A DNA stretch of 64,000 bases from Carnobacterium pleistocenium FTR1. GTDB lineage: Bacteria; Bacillota; Bacilli; Lactobacillales; Carnobacteriaceae. This document shows positions 8,536 through 13,223 of this stretch, piece after piece (within the stretch, counting starts at the first letter, position 1; the number at the start of each line of letters is the position of its first letter). The stretch covers positions 248,001 to 312,000 of the forward strand of contig NZ_JQLQ01000002.1 of the NCBI RefSeq assembly GCF_000744285.1, given 5' to 3'. The position numbers and the translations under genes are program-made. The notes beneath the pieces were generated by a model. The model had not been told where the DNA came from, did not search any database, and saw nothing but the letters and a program-made list of their open reading frames with translations.

Positions 8536-8662
8536 TGTTTAGTTTATTTTGTACAAACACCTGACCAAGCTTTGAATTTATTGTCTGAAAATTCAATGAT
8601 CGTTCCTTCGTTTTTTTGGATTAACTACTTTTTAATAAAATAGGGGTTGCCGAATGAATCAT
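8536..8662 (-). pseudogene. Internally deleted 3' remnant of the BacA-like gene (repeat copy A1)
   Basis: Bases 8536-8561 match 11345-11370, and bases 8560-8662 match 11478-11582, with about 107 bases missing between them. The matching partner is the 3' part of the intact BacA-like gene, in the same orientation. One end of the remnant coincides with the trpG stop codon (8659-8661); the other is the DAHP synthase leader. Substitutions and small indels have accumulated, so it no longer encodes a useful product. It is a scar of the rearrangement that placed trpEG here. Confidence 0.85.
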
Positions 8663-9252: not shown

Positions 9253-10616
9253 TTTTTTCCAACCTCCAGTAAGGATTTTGCTTTATTCAATGTTTCTTGG
9301 TATTCCGTTGCAGGATCAGAATCATAAACGATTCCTGCACCTGCTTGAACATACGCCAGGTTGTCTTTTATTACCATTGTTCGAATAGCTAATGCTAGAT
9401 CCAAGTCTCCATTCAAATTAATGTACCCGATTGAACCAGAATAAACACCGCGTAAATTGTCTTCCAACTCATTTATAATCTGCATCGCTCGTATTTTCGG
9501 TGCACCTGACACGGTTCCTGCTGGTAGGGTGGTGGTCAGTGCATCCAATCCTGTCAGTCCATCTGCTAAGGTCCCACTAACTTCGGAGACAATGTGCATC
9601 ACATGCTGGAACCGTTCAATCGTCATATACTTATTTATTGAAATCGATCCAATCTGTGAAACGCGCCCCAAATCGTTCCGACTTAAATCTACAAGCATTT
9701 TATGTTCAGCACATTCTTTTTCATCTGAGAGCAAGTCTGCTGCATACGCATCGTCTGCTGCGATCGTTTCGCCTCTTGGTCGCGTTCCAGCAATCGGATT
9801 AGTGATGACCTTATTGCCTGTGACCCTGATTAAACTTTCCGGTGAGGCTCCAAGAACAATATACTCTTCGAAATCCACGTAAAACATATAAGGAGATGGA
9901 TTCGCTACTCTTAATTTTCGGTAAAACGTGAAGGGATCTACTTCAAACGGTGCTTTCATTCGTTGGGACAGTACGACCTGGAAGATATCCCCCTCAACGA
10001 TATGCTCTTTTGCCTTCTTGACCAGCTTCATAAAGCTTTCTCTATCATGAGAAGTCGAAAATTCAAGAGGCGTTAGTTCGCTCATCAGCTCTTCTGCTGG
10101 CTGTTGTATCATTTCTTCAAGGATTCTGATCTGCTGATCCAAATGTTCAATCCCATCAATCGCCAACGCTACGATAGTGACTTCCTGTTTCTTATGATCA
10201 AATACCACCAGTTCCTGATAAAACATCAAATGAATATCCGGCATATTGATTTCGTCTTTTAGTCGCTCACCAATTTCTTCGTATTCACGCACTGCGTCGT
10301 ATCCAACGTAACCAACTGCGCCTCCATAGAATGGAAAGGGCAAATCCAGTGATACTTGGGGAATATGCGCTTTTACAACGTTTAATGGCTTGTCATAAAA
10401 TGTTTCCTCATGGATTCCTTCTTTCACGATGACGATTTGCTCATTTCCGACGATTTCCTTATAGGGATCCATTCCGATAAACGAATACCGTCCTTTTTCC
10501 CCGTGCCCACTTGAACTCTCTAATATAAATTTCTTCTTGCCTTTCAATCGTTGAAATACCGAAATGGGCGTCAGCATATCTCCGTTGATTTGTTTCGTTC
10601 TATATTGAATACTCAT
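9249..10616 (-). CDS. trpE: Anthranilate synthase component I
   Basis: Converts chorismate to anthranilate with ammonia from TrpG. The protein has 455 residues. The N-terminal LESSSGHGEKGRYSFIGMDP segment contains the LES-type element linked to tryptophan feedback inhibition in TrpE, which argues against PabB. The chorismate-binding domain shows GDIFQVVLSQRMKAPF, NPIAGTRPRG, DLSRNDLGRVS and PAGTVSGAPKIRAMQII in order. The start is preceded by a long leader with a 33-codon ORF containing two Trp codons and a terminator, so expression is probably controlled by attenuation. Confidence 0.95.
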   Translation of the reverse strand: MSIQYRTKQINGDMLTPISVFQRLKGKKKFILESSSGHGEKGRYSFIGMDPYKEIVGNEQIVIVKEGIHEETFYDKPLNVVKAHIPQVSLDLPFPFYGGAVGYVGYDAVREYEEIGERLKDEINMPDIHLMFYQELVVFDHKKQEVTIVALAIDGIEHLDQQIRILEEMIQQPAEELMSELTPLEFSTSHDRESFMKLVKKAKEHIVEGDIFQVVLSQRMKAPFEVDPFTFYRKLRVANPSPYMFYVDFEEYIVLGASPESLIRVTGNKVITNPIAGTRPRGETIAADDAYAADLLSDEKECAEHKMLVDLSRNDLGRVSQIGSISINKYMTIERFQHVMHIVSEVSGTLADGLTGLDALTTTLPAGTVSGAPKIRAMQIINELEDNLRGVYSGSIGYINLNGDLDLALAIRTMVIKDNLAYVQAGAGIVYDSDPATEYQETLNKAKSLLEVGKK

Positions 10617-10807
10617 TTTCTTCTCCCCCGTTTAATTTAGTAAGGAACTCTTTACTGATCATTTCGTTCATGTGTCACGAATCAACGGTGAGCATTAATT
10701 GCTTTTAAAAAACACACTTCTTGATCGGAAACCCTATTTTTTCAGTCTCGCTAGTTCTCTGTAATGGGGTGGTTGACTATCTTACTCTTGATTATTGATT
10801 ATTTCGT

Positions 10808-10847
10808 AAAAAAAAAGACAGAAACCCATTTAAAATGAGTTTCTGCC
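10808..10847 (-). terminator. Attenuator terminator upstream of trpE
   Basis: Read on the minus strand, GGCAGAAACTCATT pairs with AATGGGTTTCTGTC and is followed by nine T. It lies about 190 bases before the trpE ATG, inside the leader. A competing hairpin TTCTGCTTAGGCAGAA (10841-10856) uses the 5' arm of the terminator and could act as antiterminator. Confidence 0.8.
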
Positions 10848-10973
10848 TAAGCAGAATACAGCTATTCACAGATTTTAGATTGGTCCCCCGCCCATTGTTG
10901 AAAAAAGCGAGTAACCTAAAATTAGCTACAGCTATACCTTGTATTTATCGAAGAATCACTCATTACGATTCAC

Positions 10974-11075
10974 TCATTCAATTTTTGTGCAGCGCCAATA
11001 ACCAGCGCGTACGTCGACGCCTTGGTTTTGCCATGAATAGTGCACAGTCAAATTGATAAATGAATTGTTAGTCAT
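10974..11075 (-). CDS. Trp leader peptide (33 residues, two Trp codons)
   Basis: ATG at 11075-11073, TGA at 10976-10974, and a near-perfect AAAGGAGGG ribosome binding site 7-8 bases upstream. The peptide contains HYSWQNQG and GYWRC, with Trp at positions 15 and 27. It follows a strong promoter (11124-11152) and precedes a terminator (10808-10847) in front of trpE. That arrangement matches a transcription-attenuation leader. The Trp codons are not adjacent, unlike classic trpL, so the mechanism needs testing. No T-box consensus (TGGNACC followed by the terminator) is seen; the nearest string is GGGGGACC near 10882-10889. Confidence 0.7.
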   Translation of the reverse strand: MTNNSFINLTVHYSWQNQGVDVRAGYWRCTKIE

Positions 11076-11123
11076 AATTGAGTGACCCTCCTTTCTTTTT
11101 AATAGTTTTCTTAATTTTTTCTC

Positions 11124-11152
11124 ATTATAACGAGTCCTTTTTTGAAAGTCAA
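11124..11152 (-). promoter_or_regulatory. Promoter of the trp leader-trpE-trpG transcript
   Basis: On the minus strand TTGACT (11152-11147), a 17-base spacer and TATAAT (11129-11124) give a near-consensus sigma-A promoter. Transcription would start near 11117, about 40 bases before the leader ATG. Confidence 0.85.
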
Positions 11153-11244
11153 CCGTAAAATTTTAGGATTCATGTACTTTTTGCATTGACACCGAAAAAA
11201 TTTAGAATCCAATTATTCATCTCATTATTTGTTCAATCAAGCTA

Positions 11245-11370
11245 GATGAAAAAATCGGAAAATAATTATAAAGTGTCTGGATCAACTGGTGGTAAACGAT
11301 TTAGAGTCGTTAAATGATAGTTCGTTAATTATTTTCATTTGTAATGTTTAATTTATTTTGTACAAACACC
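11245..11370. repeat. Direct repeat B, copy 1
   Basis: Bases 11257-11340 closely match 12258-12343, sharing AATAATTATAAA, CAACTGG, AAACGATTTA and TTCGTTAATTATTTT in the same order and orientation. Weaker similarity continues outward to about 11370 and 12382. The two copies flank the BacA-like gene and its leader. Confidence 0.75.
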
Positions 11371-11884
11371 ATACCATTACTGGCTCATATCGTTCTTCAA
11401 TTGTGTAATTCGGATTCTTTTCTTTCTCAAGCACATCCTCGCTAATGATCGTGTATTTCAAATTTTTCTTACAAAATCCTGACCAAGCTTTGAATTTGCT
11501 GTCTGAAAATTCAATGACAGTGTCTTCGTTTTTTAGGATTAGATATTTTTTTAAGAAAATAGTGGTTGCTGGATGAATCATTGCTCGGTTTTCAGAATAA
11601 TAGTTGTTTTTGACTAAAACCATCGGCTTGGTTTTTCGTTGAAAAACATCTACCAACTCAACTTTATCCCAATAATCATAATTAAACTCCTTCCAGCCAT
11701 ACTCTTTTCGGGCGCTTTTAAAAGCCACAGGAAATAACACGTATTGTTCAGCTAGTTTATGAATAGTGTGTAGTAGATTGTCAAAAGATGGATAGGCAAC
11801 AATACCATCGTTTTCTGACTGGAGCAAGGATTCTGCAACTGCATAACTATCCGTGCTGCTTGGTCCTAGCGTATGAATGATCAT
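11348..11884 (-). CDS. Prephenate dehydratase-fold protein, BacA (prephenate decarboxylase)-like
   Basis: A 178-residue protein beginning MIIHTLGPSSTDSYAVAES, the start of prephenate dehydratase and of BacA, the bacilysin prephenate decarboxylase. The PSFDNLLHTIHKL and KTKPMVLVKN segments resemble BacA more than classical PheA; the Thr-Arg-Phe catalytic motif of PheA and an ACT domain are not seen. It may act on prephenate, either supplying the missing dehydratase step or making a specialised product; this is inference. The start at 11884 is chosen because a G-rich site (GTGGGGGGA) lies just upstream; a longer frame begins at 11929. It sits behind a Phe/Tyr-codon leader peptide and terminator. 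Confidence 0.7.
   Translation of the reverse strand: MIIHTLGPSSTDSYAVAESLLQSENDGIVAYPSFDNLLHTIHKLAEQYVLFPVAFKSARKEYGWKEFNYDYWDKVELVDVFQRKTKPMVLVKNNYYSENRAMIHPATTIFLKKYLILKNEDTVIEFSDSKFKAWSGFCKKNLKYTIISEDVLEKEKNPNYTIEERYEPVMVWCLYKIN
11478..11582. repeat. Direct repeat A, copy 2 (inside the BacA-like gene)
   Basis: This part of the intact gene, together with 11345-11370, is the partner of the remnant at 8536-8662. The two copies lie in direct orientation on either side of trpEG and its leader. Confidence 0.8.
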
Positions 11885-11911
11885 CTCTTTTCCCCCCACT
11901 AAAATTATTAA

Positions 11912-11966
11912 AAAACGAAAAAACGCCACACACGATAGTCTATGAAAGAGTATCGAATGTAGCGTT
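11912..11966 (-). terminator. Attenuator terminator upstream of the BacA-like gene
   Basis: On the minus strand AACGCTACA pairs with TGTGGCGTT (one G-U pair), with inner arms CGATA / TATCG, followed by six T. It ends about 30 bases before the gene start, between it and the leader peptide, which is the expected place for an attenuator. Confidence 0.85.
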
Positions 11967-12003
11967 AGGTAAGTTCACTAATAGTATAATATCGGATTAG
12001 TTC

Positions 12004-12082
12004 GTTGCCCCTTCGATTTCTTTCAAAATCTATAGGGCAACTGTTGTTAGCAGCTTAAAAAGCTTTAGCCTCTATAGATTTT
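12004..12082 (-). promoter_or_regulatory. Mutually exclusive hairpin arms of the Phe/Tyr attenuator
   Basis: In the minus-strand RNA, CTATAGATTTT/AAAATCTATAG arms (12072-12082 and 12025-12035) form an 11-bp stem that starts inside the leader peptide just after the Tyr/Phe codons. GTTGCCC (12041-12035) can instead pair with GGGCAAC (12010-12004). The second stem threads through the loop of the first, so the two should exclude each other, as segments 1:2 and 2:3 do in classical attenuators. Confidence 0.65.
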
Positions 12083-12156
12083 CTCATAAAGAAGCTAAAA
12101 TAATAATTATTCAATTGTGAGTCCATTGCAGTTTGAAGTTTTGTTAGTAAGTTCAT
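12055..12156 (-). CDS. Phe/Tyr leader peptide (33 residues with YYFSFF)
   Basis: ATG at 12156-12154 after a GAGGAGAG site, TAA at 12057-12055. Residues 18-23 are Tyr-Tyr-Phe-Ser-Phe-Phe (codons 12105-12088), a cluster of the pathway end products. It follows a strong promoter, overlaps one arm of a stem and is followed by alternative hairpins and a terminator before the BacA-like gene. This is the layout of pheL/pheST-type leaders, in which ribosome stalling at starved codons permits read-through. Such leaders are uncommon in Lactobacillales, where T-boxes usually do this job. Confidence 0.8.
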   Translation of the reverse strand: MNLLTKLQTAMDSQLNNYYFSFFMRKSIEAKAF

Positions 12157-12208
12157 AGTGGTCTCTCCTCAATTGAGTATTATCAGCTGTTCGCCAACTG
12201 TGAGTCCA

Positions 12209-12237
12209 ATACTAGCAATTAAAAAAATCATTGTCAA
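12209..12237 (-). promoter_or_regulatory. Promoter of the Phe/Tyr leader transcript
   Basis: On the minus strand TTGACA (12237-12232), a 17-base spacer and TAGTAT (12214-12209). Transcription would begin near 12202, about 45 bases before the leader ATG. Confidence 0.8.
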
Positions 12238-12244
12238 CAACAAA

Positions 12245-12382
12245 ATGAAAAGATGTTTTGAAAAATAATTATAAAAGTGTGCGGAACAACTGGCTGCAAA
12301 CGATTTAAAGTCATTTTGAATAATTGTTCGTTAATTATTTTTATTGAACTTTAGGTTTTTTTTGTCTATACTTCAACACATT
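12245..12382. repeat. Direct repeat B, copy 2
   Basis: Partner of 11245-11370. The strong match is 12258-12343; the right part runs into the aroE promoter. With copy 1 it brackets the BacA-like gene and its leader, about 1 kb apart in direct orientation. Confidence 0.75.
12344..12372 (+). promoter_or_regulatory. Promoter of the aroE-aroK-aroQ-tyrA operon
   Basis: TTGAAC (12344-12349), a 17-base spacer and TATACT (12367-12372). The start point would be about 30 bases before the aroE ATG, leaving no room for a leader regulator on this strand. Confidence 0.75.
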
Positions 12383-12407
12383 ATCAAAAGATGGGAAGAG
12401 GTGCTTT

Positions 12408-13223
12408 ATGAACGTTTACGGATTATTCGGAGAATCACTTGTGCATAGCTACTCACCAAGCCTTCATAAATTGATTTATCAAAAAATAGGATTGGAGGCT
12501 GCATATCAGCTTTTTGCGTTTCCACCAACACAATTAAAGCAAGCAATGGACGGCATTAGGACGTTATCGATTAATGGAGTCAATGTCACGATGCCTTACA
12601 AAGAAGCCTCAATATCTTATTTAGACGAAATTGATTTATTTGCCCAAAAATTGGGTGCGGTAAATACGATTGAAAATGTAAATGGAAAATTGATTGGACA
12701 CAATACAGATTATGATGGCTTTGGTTTGATTTTGACTCGTAGGGGATGGGAGATAAGAGGGAAAATTGCAGTTATTTTAGGATCTGGCGGCTCCTCAAAA
12801 ATGGTTGAAGCCTACTTGATGGATCATGGAATCAAACGACTCTATATTGTTTCCCGAAATCCCGAGCGGTTTAAAAACACATCAAAAAAGAAGTATACCA
12901 ATTATGAAGAGGTGCAATCTTTAACAGGAGATTTTCTGATCAATACGTCACCTGTTGGGATGTATCCCAATAATAAAGCAACTCCTTTAAATGAAAAAAC
13001 AATTAAGAGATTTGATCGTTTGATTGATTTGATTTATAACCCTAGTGAGACAACTTTTTTAAGATTGGGACGGGAGAATAGCAAACAAACGGCCAATGGC
13101 CTGGATATGTTGGTGGGTCAAGCGGTTCGAGCAGTAGAAATTTGGGAGAACTGTTCGATTGATGAAAAAGTTACAGAAGAGCTGATTACTGAGTGGAAAA
13201 ACCAACAGGGTGAGAGCTTATGA
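12408..13223 (+). CDS. aroE: Shikimate dehydrogenase
   Basis: Reduces 3-dehydroshikimate to shikimate with NADPH. The protein has 271 residues. The shikimate-binding segments are GLFGESLVHSYSPSLHK and NVTMPYKEA (catalytic Lys); NTDYDGFG carries the catalytic Asp. The nucleotide-binding turn reads GSGGSSK in place of the usual GAGGAAR, and the adenosine-phosphate contacts look less canonical, so cofactor preference could differ. GAAGAGGTG precedes the ATG. First gene of a four-gene plus-strand operon; its stop overlaps the aroK start by four bases. Confidence 0.94.
   Translation: MNVYGLFGESLVHSYSPSLHKLIYQKIGLEAAYQLFAFPPTQLKQAMDGIRTLSINGVNVTMPYKEASISYLDEIDLFAQKLGAVNTIENVNGKLIGHNTDYDGFGLILTRRGWEIRGKIAVILGSGGSSKMVEAYLMDHGIKRLYIVSRNPERFKNTSKKKYTNYEEVQSLTGDFLINTSPVGMYPNNKATPLNEKTIKRFDRLIDLIYNPSETTFLRLGRENSKQTANGLDMLVGQAVRAVEIWENCSIDEKVTEELITEWKNQQGESL

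Follow-up and report, generated by a model that had tools for sequence, protein, structure and literature searches.

A 64,000-nucleotide stretch of the genome of Carnobacterium pleistocenium FTR1 (positions 248,001 to 312,000 of contig NZ_JQLQ01000002.1; hereafter, the window) contains, on its minus strand, a gene of 178 codons whose product resembles prephenate dehydratase. The gene is preceded by a leader with a short open reading frame (ORF). A preliminary description of this locus had called the gene BacA-like and had proposed that it is controlled by a Phe/Tyr leader-peptide attenuator. The promoter, the 33-residue ORF with its ribosome site and the run Tyr-Tyr-Phe-Ser-Phe-Phe, and the intrinsic terminator about 30 bases before the gene are all present as described (Table 1). 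The ORF translates to MNLLTKLQTAMDSQLNNYYFSFFMRKSIEAKAF, and the terminator hairpin and its T-run end near 11918, ~33 bases upstream of the ATG at 11884. The leader thus has the parts expected of an attenuator: a translatable ORF that contains a regulatory codon run and is served by a ribosome site, and an intrinsic terminator between the ORF and the gene. A generic terminator scan of the window did not list this hairpin; folding shows it. The 252-base leader has a minimum free energy of -62.8, versus a mean of -40.6 (standard deviation 4.3) for shuffled sequences (z -5.2), and 0 of 200 shuffles were equal or better.

We interpret the leader as a ribosome-mediated attenuator that responds to Phe (and Tyr). 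It would be the short form of a family in the Lactobacillales whose sensed codons can be swapped, placed here before a probable prephenate dehydratase gene. We give this reading a probability of roughly 80%. It is based on the ORF, the stems, their conservation, covariation in longer relatives, the distribution of the family, and the agreement between codons and genes; from these we infer the stalling of the ribosome, the switch itself, and the enzyme's reaction.

Relatives of the gene are found in 34 of 395 genomes sampled from the order. (The same sample was searched for PF00800 and with our model R1, described below; the search with a second model, R2, covered 390 genomes.) Named relatives, from another collection, belong to Carnobacterium, Desemzia, Marinilactibacillus, Alkalibacterium, Paucilactobacillus, and Fructobacillus. 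Of the 34 genomes, 17 have a directly alignable leader upstream of it. These 17 leaders have a mean column identity of 74%, and the core of the ORF is common to all of them. Judging by eye, a promoter like the window's is at the matching place in L002–L006. In an 18th genome (G132), the contig ends upstream of the gene before the leader is reached; another contig (L065) has a leader at its end, and the two are probably from the same place. In Paucilactobacillus (L048–L051), all four leaders before the same gene end in Q-F-N-F-S-F-F-R-stop and have different stem sequences. The stretch at L020 (G156) is identical to that of L048, and L029 (G278) appears by eye to have a further variant. At L021–L028, L030, L031, and L052–L054, no such leader was visible by eye directly before the gene, and another gene often abuts it there. 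Four of the 34 genomes (G274, G230, G345, and G313) were left out of this reading of upstream regions. Conservation in related genomes, which the preliminary description had named as a check, was tested: the ORF and stems are kept in 17 loci, although in about half of the gene-bearing genomes either no such leader adjoins the gene or the region could not be read.

As a separate observation made by eye, short repeat units (such as GTTCGAAGC.AAGC and GGATTTTCAATC) lie between the leader's terminator and the gene in L007, L009, L012, L014, and L016–L018, which are Marinilactibacillus- and Alkalibacterium-type relatives.

Conservation, structure, and natural codon swaps lend good support to Phe/Tyr attenuation by the ribosome, as originally proposed, but the proposed wiring was wrong. 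The first stem had been placed just after the regulatory codons; its 5' arm is actually the Phe-Ser-Phe codons themselves (UUUAGCUUC paired with GAGGCUAAA). A second stem, GTTGCCC/GGGCAAC, had been said to compete with the first. These two stems share no bases, so direct competition between them is impossible, and we replaced the two-stem scheme with an alternation of six segments (A to F). The second stem is C:D, and the links B:C and D:E had been missed. Five helices are common to the 17 loci: A:B, C:D, and E:F, which together make the OFF state, alternate with B:C and D:E, which make the ON state. Across the 17 loci, 91.3% of cells in the OFF helices are paired, versus 35–49% with slid partners. 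For the ON helices, these values are 96.8% and 17–44%.

This arrangement suggests how the switch could work. Without a ribosome, A:B, C:D, and E:F would form, and RNA polymerase would stop at E:F. If charged tRNA-Phe or tRNA-Tyr were scarce, the ribosome would halt on Tyr-Tyr-Phe-Ser-Phe-Phe and cover A, which would allow B:C and D:E to form; the terminator would then be absent and the gene would be transcribed. If the supply were good, the ribosome would continue and cover B, because the window's ORF extends through B; C:D would then form and transcription would end.

Table 1. Features of the leader and the regulated gene in the window.
Feature	Position	Strand	Remark
Promoter TTGACA-17-TAGTAT, extended -10 (TG before the -10 box)	12209..12237	-	sequence scan
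Putative small hairpin CAGTTG..CAGCTG in the 5' untranslated region (UTR)	12184..12200	-	read by eye
CAATTG, then ribosome site AGGAG	12165..12175	-	CAATTG able to pair with the QLN codons
Ribosome site AGGAG	12169-12165	-	
Leader peptide ORF, 33 codons	12156-12055	-	core QLNNYYFSFF at 12117-12088
Segment A, Phe-Ser-Phe-Phe codons	12087..12100	-	5' arm of stem A:B
Segment B	12063..12082	-	partner of A or C
Segment C	12025..12041	-	partner of B or D
Segment D	12004..12019	-	partner of C or E
Segment E, terminator 5' arm	11951..11965	-	partner of D or F
Segment F, terminator 3' arm, with T-run	11918..11937	-	
Regulated gene, 178 codons and stop	11348..11884	-	prephenate-dehydratase-like

We also folded the growing transcript of each of the 17 leaders, with its end set after C, D, or E and with A either free or covered. 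With the transcript ended after E, A:B and C:D formed in 17/17 leaders if A was free, and B:C and D:E formed in 13/17 if A was covered. With the transcript ended after C and A covered, B:C was in the minimum-energy fold of all 17. If part of B is kept from pairing in the window's copy, the best remaining fold is 1.2 kcal/mol less stable than the forced fold with B:C and D:E.

Several results count against this reading of the leader. At L019 (G372), the gene is interrupted by in-frame stops and the leader is intact; this is the one broken copy among the 34 genomes. Covariation within the 17 short leaders is thin: 5 pairs of the OFF state changed on both sides versus 3.3 in shuffles (30/500 as high), pair types in the OFF set show no excess over shuffles (494/500), and 1 pair of the ON state changed on both sides versus 1.0 in shuffles. 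With A covered and the transcript ended after D, the minimum has C:D in 17/17, and with the full terminator present, E:F prevails in 17/17. The four leaders that did not switch to B:C and D:E when the transcript ended after E are the window's own (L001) and those of its congeners L002, L004, and L005, whose minimum keeps C:D with A covered. In the window's copy, the fold with B:C and D:E is at -27.0 kcal/mol, which is 1.3 above the minimum of -28.3. Since C:D is favored once D is out, and E:F once the terminator is complete, B:C must persist and the switch must be kinetic: the outcome must depend on which events come first as the RNA is made, not on equilibrium. Such kinetic decisions are usual for attenuators.

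The regulated gene's product is probably the organism's missing prephenate dehydratase, with a divergent catalytic domain. PF00800, the family of prephenate dehydratase, is found in 0 of the 34 genomes that encode the protein versus 230 of the 361 others. This mutual exclusion is significant if shared ancestry is ignored (Fisher p 1.4e-14), and two genera (g58 and g32) each hold both states. Also, chorismate synthase is found in all 34 genomes with the protein, versus 14 of 46 genomes with neither enzyme (a sample of the 131 that lack both the protein and PF00800). In 16 of the 17 leader-bearing loci, DAHP synthase starts within ~30 bases of the end of the gene; the exception is the window. 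(This count includes L013 and leaves out L018, which is cut off.) At L023, the gene follows a fusion of shikimate kinase and chorismate mutase (691-1491, PF01202 + PF01817), and on the far side of the gene is an apparent dehydroquinate dehydratase, identified by eye.

The protein's predicted fold points the same way. The model (predicted local distance difference test, pLDDT, 93; predicted template-modeling score, pTM, 0.74) is two-lobed, like the catalytic domain of prephenate dehydratase, with solute-binding proteins close behind. The nine best chains from Foldseek, which come from four entries, are all prephenate dehydratases. With VIA, the two best chains are prephenate dehydratases as well (Z 10.9, 4.7 Å over 166; Z 10.3). 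At the sequence level, 8 of 14 family members have weak matches to PF00800 (E up to 1, best 1.3e-4), and 4 of the 14 match an NCBIfam model for prephenate dehydratase. Two further comparisons yielded little: a protein-profile search of the sequences in PDB returned chance-like matches only, and an hhalign comparison with four canonical prephenate dehydratases reached E 1.4e-4 at a probability of 52.7, with the match ending before the C-terminus.

Other observations speak against this assignment. The window's protein has no match in Pfam or NCBIfam at 1e-3. It does not match PF00800 (cut-off 25.2 bits), and PF00800 has no place elsewhere in its genome. The TRF motif, which lies near the end of the catalytic domain of prephenate dehydratase and is catalytic, is absent from 14/14 members and invariant in 4/4 canonical enzymes; without it, the protein should not be filed under PF00800. 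In the VIA comparison, the solute-binding protein TphC ties with the prephenate dehydratases (Z 9.8, 4.2 Å over 169). Finally, DAHP synthase was not found behind the gene in any of the four Paucilactobacillus loci.

The absence of the TRF motif would also fit a BacA-type prephenate decarboxylase that makes a secondary metabolite, with the leader merely linking that product to the aromatic supply. The original label is understandable given a putative local resemblance to BacA. However, in the 395 genomes the protein never occurs alongside PF00800, it is always accompanied by chorismate synthase, and its gene adjoins DAHP synthase or follows the chorismate mutase fusion; other bacilysin genes were not searched for. 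The distribution, the gene neighbors, and the fold all favor a stand-in prephenate dehydratase over a decarboxylase of the bacilysin type, which we consider rather unlikely.

At just 178 codons, the gene appears to leave no room for an ACT domain. If the protein is a prephenate dehydratase without the Phe-binding ACT domain, control of transcription may replace feedback inhibition. The assignment could also fill a gap of the kind reported for Leuconostoc carnosum, in which neither prephenate dehydratase nor chorismate mutase was found (PMC7829361).

The sensed codons match the controlled gene: Phe/Tyr codons are at aromatic genes, Trp codons at TrpX, and Ile codons at IlvE. This agreement rests on a handful of swaps, not on a full survey. 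In C. pleistocenium itself, a leader with QLNSSWQSQDR (L197) precedes a protein that is above the cut-off for TrpX (450 vs. 390 bits), and the leader QLNNYYFSYFRSCL (QLNNYYFSYFR) precedes a TrpX paralog that is below the cut-off (344 bits). The match of L197 to the family is weak (R2 E 8e-4; RF04312 E 2.2e-5). In another genome (G219), an IISIIR leader precedes IlvE (443 bits vs. a cut-off of 307), and a VIISIIIR leader precedes what is probably a branched-chain binding protein (169.6 bits vs. a cut-off of 477 for that model). The genome G084 lacks both prephenate dehydratase and its stand-in; there, the short leader ahead of DAHP synthase has the sequence QLNTWYYSFLD and retains a single Phe codon. 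These natural exchanges of codons within a kept frame are, though few, the strongest argument for sensing by a stalled ribosome. The codon swaps would also allow specificity to be read off the sequence.

A different role for the leader peptide would be nascent-peptide arrest by free Phe or Tyr (as with TnaC), instead of codons that sense charged tRNA. A search with R1 found 51 further loci, of which 48 have QLN ahead of the codon run, its Leu being encoded by four synonymous codons, and many of the longer leaders end in Arg-stop right after the run. However, R1 includes the QLN columns. Among loci found with R2, which lacks the QLN codons, just 24/56 have QLN and 33/56 have LN. QLN is therefore not required, and we rejected it as an obligatory arrest motif. 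Its conservation is explained in part by a side feature, pairing with the 5' UTR. In the window's copy, the pairing of CAATTG with the QLN codons has an energy of -7.0 kcal/mol, and 0 of 31 control 9-mers from the ORF are as good; across 68 leaders, QLN is the best 9-mer for this pairing in 38. Also, the swaps to Ile and Trp leave the scaffold intact, and arrest by a free amino acid would have the wrong sign for induction upon shortage. Arrest by the free amino acid is thus very doubtful.

The scaffold itself is found more widely. R1, which was built from the 17 short leaders, has matches in 69 of the 395 genomes. Among them are longer relatives that precede genes for AroE, for DAHP synthase, or for an ABC substrate-binding lipoprotein (L085 in the window's own genome is of this last type). 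At some AroE-type loci (e.g., G006, G011, G051, and G079), a canonical prephenate dehydratase lies 7–8 kb further along on the same strand, which does not imply that it is in the same operon. R2, a model of the longer form, has matches in 256 of 390 genomes of the order, and in 21 of 220 genomes of the class, five of which are outside the order; the E-values of both models are rough. The R2 matches were read singly in 56 loci, not throughout all 256 genomes. Such an abundance does not fit with the preliminary description's view that this mechanism is unexpected in Lactobacillales. If the element is truly an attenuator, then with a scaffold in 256 of 390 sampled genomes it would be a main route for sensing aromatic amino acids in these bacteria.

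We identified the first downstream gene, taken as the first open frame of at least 80 codons after the match, for 106 matches other than the 17 window-type loci; representatives are included and a few places are counted twice. These genes comprise 64 ABC_sub_bind, 24 AroE, 8 DAHP synthases, 2 unclassified, and 8 others: two class I aminotransferases, a transketolase, IlvE, the probable branched-chain binding protein, a family-3 binding protein, a CitMHS transporter, and a PTS EIIC. The leader before the transketolase (QLNRYYYFGWFS; L192, G514) is outside the window's order. The leader before the CitMHS-family transporter (L188, G219) has ...VYFSYFR, and the codons suggest that the transporter handles an aromatic compound.

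The longer form has an additional hairpin, P1, between A and B. We aligned 39 of the 51 further R1 loci (alignment A5), excluding odd, cut, or near-identical ones, and found covariation that supports the OFF helices and, more weakly, the ON helices. Changes on both sides were seen in 27 pairs of the OFF helices, versus 16.2 in shuffles (0/500 as high) and 10–18 with slid partners. The ON helices had 32 cells changed on both sides, versus 16.6 in shuffles and 7–28 with slid partners. With the transcript ended after E, C:D formed in 31/39 if A was free, and B:C and D:E formed in 29/39 if A was covered. If a ribosome at the stop codon covered both A and the 5' arm of P1, then the 3' arm of P1 paired with B in 38/39, B:C formed in just 3/39, and C:D formed in 25/39. 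On paper, then, a halt on the codons, unlike reaching the stop, would release B for C in most but not all leaders. The longer leaders also add to the evidence on the other side: 9 pairs of the ON state changed on both sides versus 6.8 in shuffles (41/500 as high), C:D was kept in 10/39 with A covered, and D:E still formed in 14/39 with the ribosome at the stop.

We lean toward a common origin for these leaders: one ancestral attenuator of 6–8 segments would have spread over the Lactobacillales and a few other Bacilli. Its frame (AGC...AGA-stop and segments B–F) would have been kept, while the codons were swapped among Phe/Tyr, Trp, and Ile. In other words, the scaffold would stay and the sensed codons would shift with the controlled gene. 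The Rfam family RF02863 and, probably, the trpB motif would be parts of this family, and in the window it would control the hitherto unassigned prephenate dehydratase of genomes that seemingly lack one.

The window has no Rfam match at the gathering score, and the region 10500-12600 has none at E up to 5. Other members of the family do match Rfam models. Of 26 loci searched, 6 exceed the cut-off of 61 bits for RF02863, also known as sRNA_2410 (L116, 116.4; L080, 70.7; L201, 70.0; L100, 66.6; L166, 63.5; L084, 61.1), and 11 more match below it; the window's copy does not match. The label implies a trans-acting small RNA gene, and Enterococcus faecium sRNA_2410 is described as a 195-nt RNA with two transcripts on Northern blots (PMC5593968). 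However, in the loci we read, the element lies upstream of amino-acid genes, as the downstream genes listed above attest, and the ORF's codons track the gene. Also, an attenuator in its OFF state would itself yield a short, stable RNA, and the simplest reading of the E. faecium transcripts is that they are the terminated leader. We give little credence to a trans-acting small RNA.

RF04312, the trpB motif, has been proposed to be a metabolite-binding riboswitch, and the family's kinship with it is a lead. The best matches among the loci searched are L191 (47.4 bits) and L197 (46.7 bits), both below the cut-off of 59, and none of the four genomes searched has a match above it. PMC11109978 presents the trpB motif as a strong riboswitch candidate that is mostly found before an uncharacterized ABC transporter, but does not exclude a classic attenuator. 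A ligand pocket would not explain the conserved ORF, ribosome site, and codon run, or why the codons (W, I, or Y/F) vary on a constant scaffold, so a riboswitch seems improbable. If the family is indeed an attenuator, one Rfam small RNA would have to be reinterpreted, and perhaps an orphan riboswitch candidate as well. Lastly, we rejected a T-box that reads uncharged tRNA directly, even though T-boxes are common on amino-acid genes in Firmicutes (PMC2494555): RF00230 matches neither the window at the gathering score nor 10500-12600 at E up to 5, while the same search mode detected a T-box elsewhere (L187, E 6.4e-19, 91.2 bits; cut-off 93).

The window's copy of the locus also has an unusual gene order: trpE, trpG, and a second leader-like ORF sit between the gene and DAHP synthase. 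The second ORF (11075-10974, minus strand) has Trp codons (...HYSWQNQGVDVRAGYWRCTKIE; ...YSWQNQ...GYWR) and lies upstream of trpE (10616-9249). It has a promoter-like site ahead of it (11152-11124) and a strong terminator-like site after it (10848-10816), and TGGCAAAACCAAG within it is similar to TGGCAAAGCCAAG in the TrpX leader from the same genome (L197). By a two-Trp rule, no comparable form is present in 15 other loci. This is no test of its conservation, because DAHP synthase directly follows the gene in those 15 loci. Directly before the window's DAHP synthase is a remnant of the gene (8538-8645, minus strand; amino acids 107–142, 67% identity, with stops). Also, each of the two leader promoters has upstream of it one copy of a direct repeat, made up of 42 + 30 bases with identities of 81% and 87% (11270-11339 and 12274-12345, 1004–1006 bases apart). 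Because of the remnant and the repeat, it looks like an insertion of trpEG, with duplication, split an ancestral operon of the prephenate-dehydratase-like gene and DAHP synthase. That insertion seems to have placed DAHP synthase behind a Trp-type leader.

The wiring that we propose follows the same six-segment scheme as the attenuator of the his operon in enteric bacteria, in which A:B, C:D, and E:F alternate with B:C and D:E and the codon run lies within the first segment. The two differ in lineage and in amino acid, and here one scaffold is used at several genes per genome, across an order, with its codons swapped. The pheA leader of E. coli likewise encodes a leader peptide with Phe codons, upstream of a gene for prephenate dehydratase. 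Unlike pheA, the window's leader mixes Tyr and Phe codons, and it has no Rfam match. Among open-licence papers, we did not find a description of a Phe/Tyr leader-peptide family in the Lactobacillales; Panina et al. 2003 is said to address aromatic regulation in low-GC Gram-positive bacteria. Leader-peptide attenuation has been regarded as rare in Firmicutes. According to PMC2965389, it had been shown, before that paper's own predicted hisS case, only in Proteobacteria and Actinobacteria, ermC aside. The uORFC-13-1 motif upstream of aroF, as presented in PMC8632094, is a proposed upstream ORF with a Phe codon and a terminator before DAHP synthase. It has 24 representatives there.

Two Rfam families also invite comparison. 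RF02863 is annotated as a small RNA gene, not a leader, and its model misses the shorter form in the window. On the other hand, in the printed alignments, the model starts inside the codons for Phe-Ser-Tyr-Phe-Arg-stop, and the six loci over its cut-off are longer relatives of the window's leader. The trpB motif differs in being a proposed riboswitch with only sub-threshold matches here. Like our family, it lies upstream of an ABC transporter and has a terminator with a possible antiterminator, and it weakly matches both L191 and the TrpX leader of C. pleistocenium itself.

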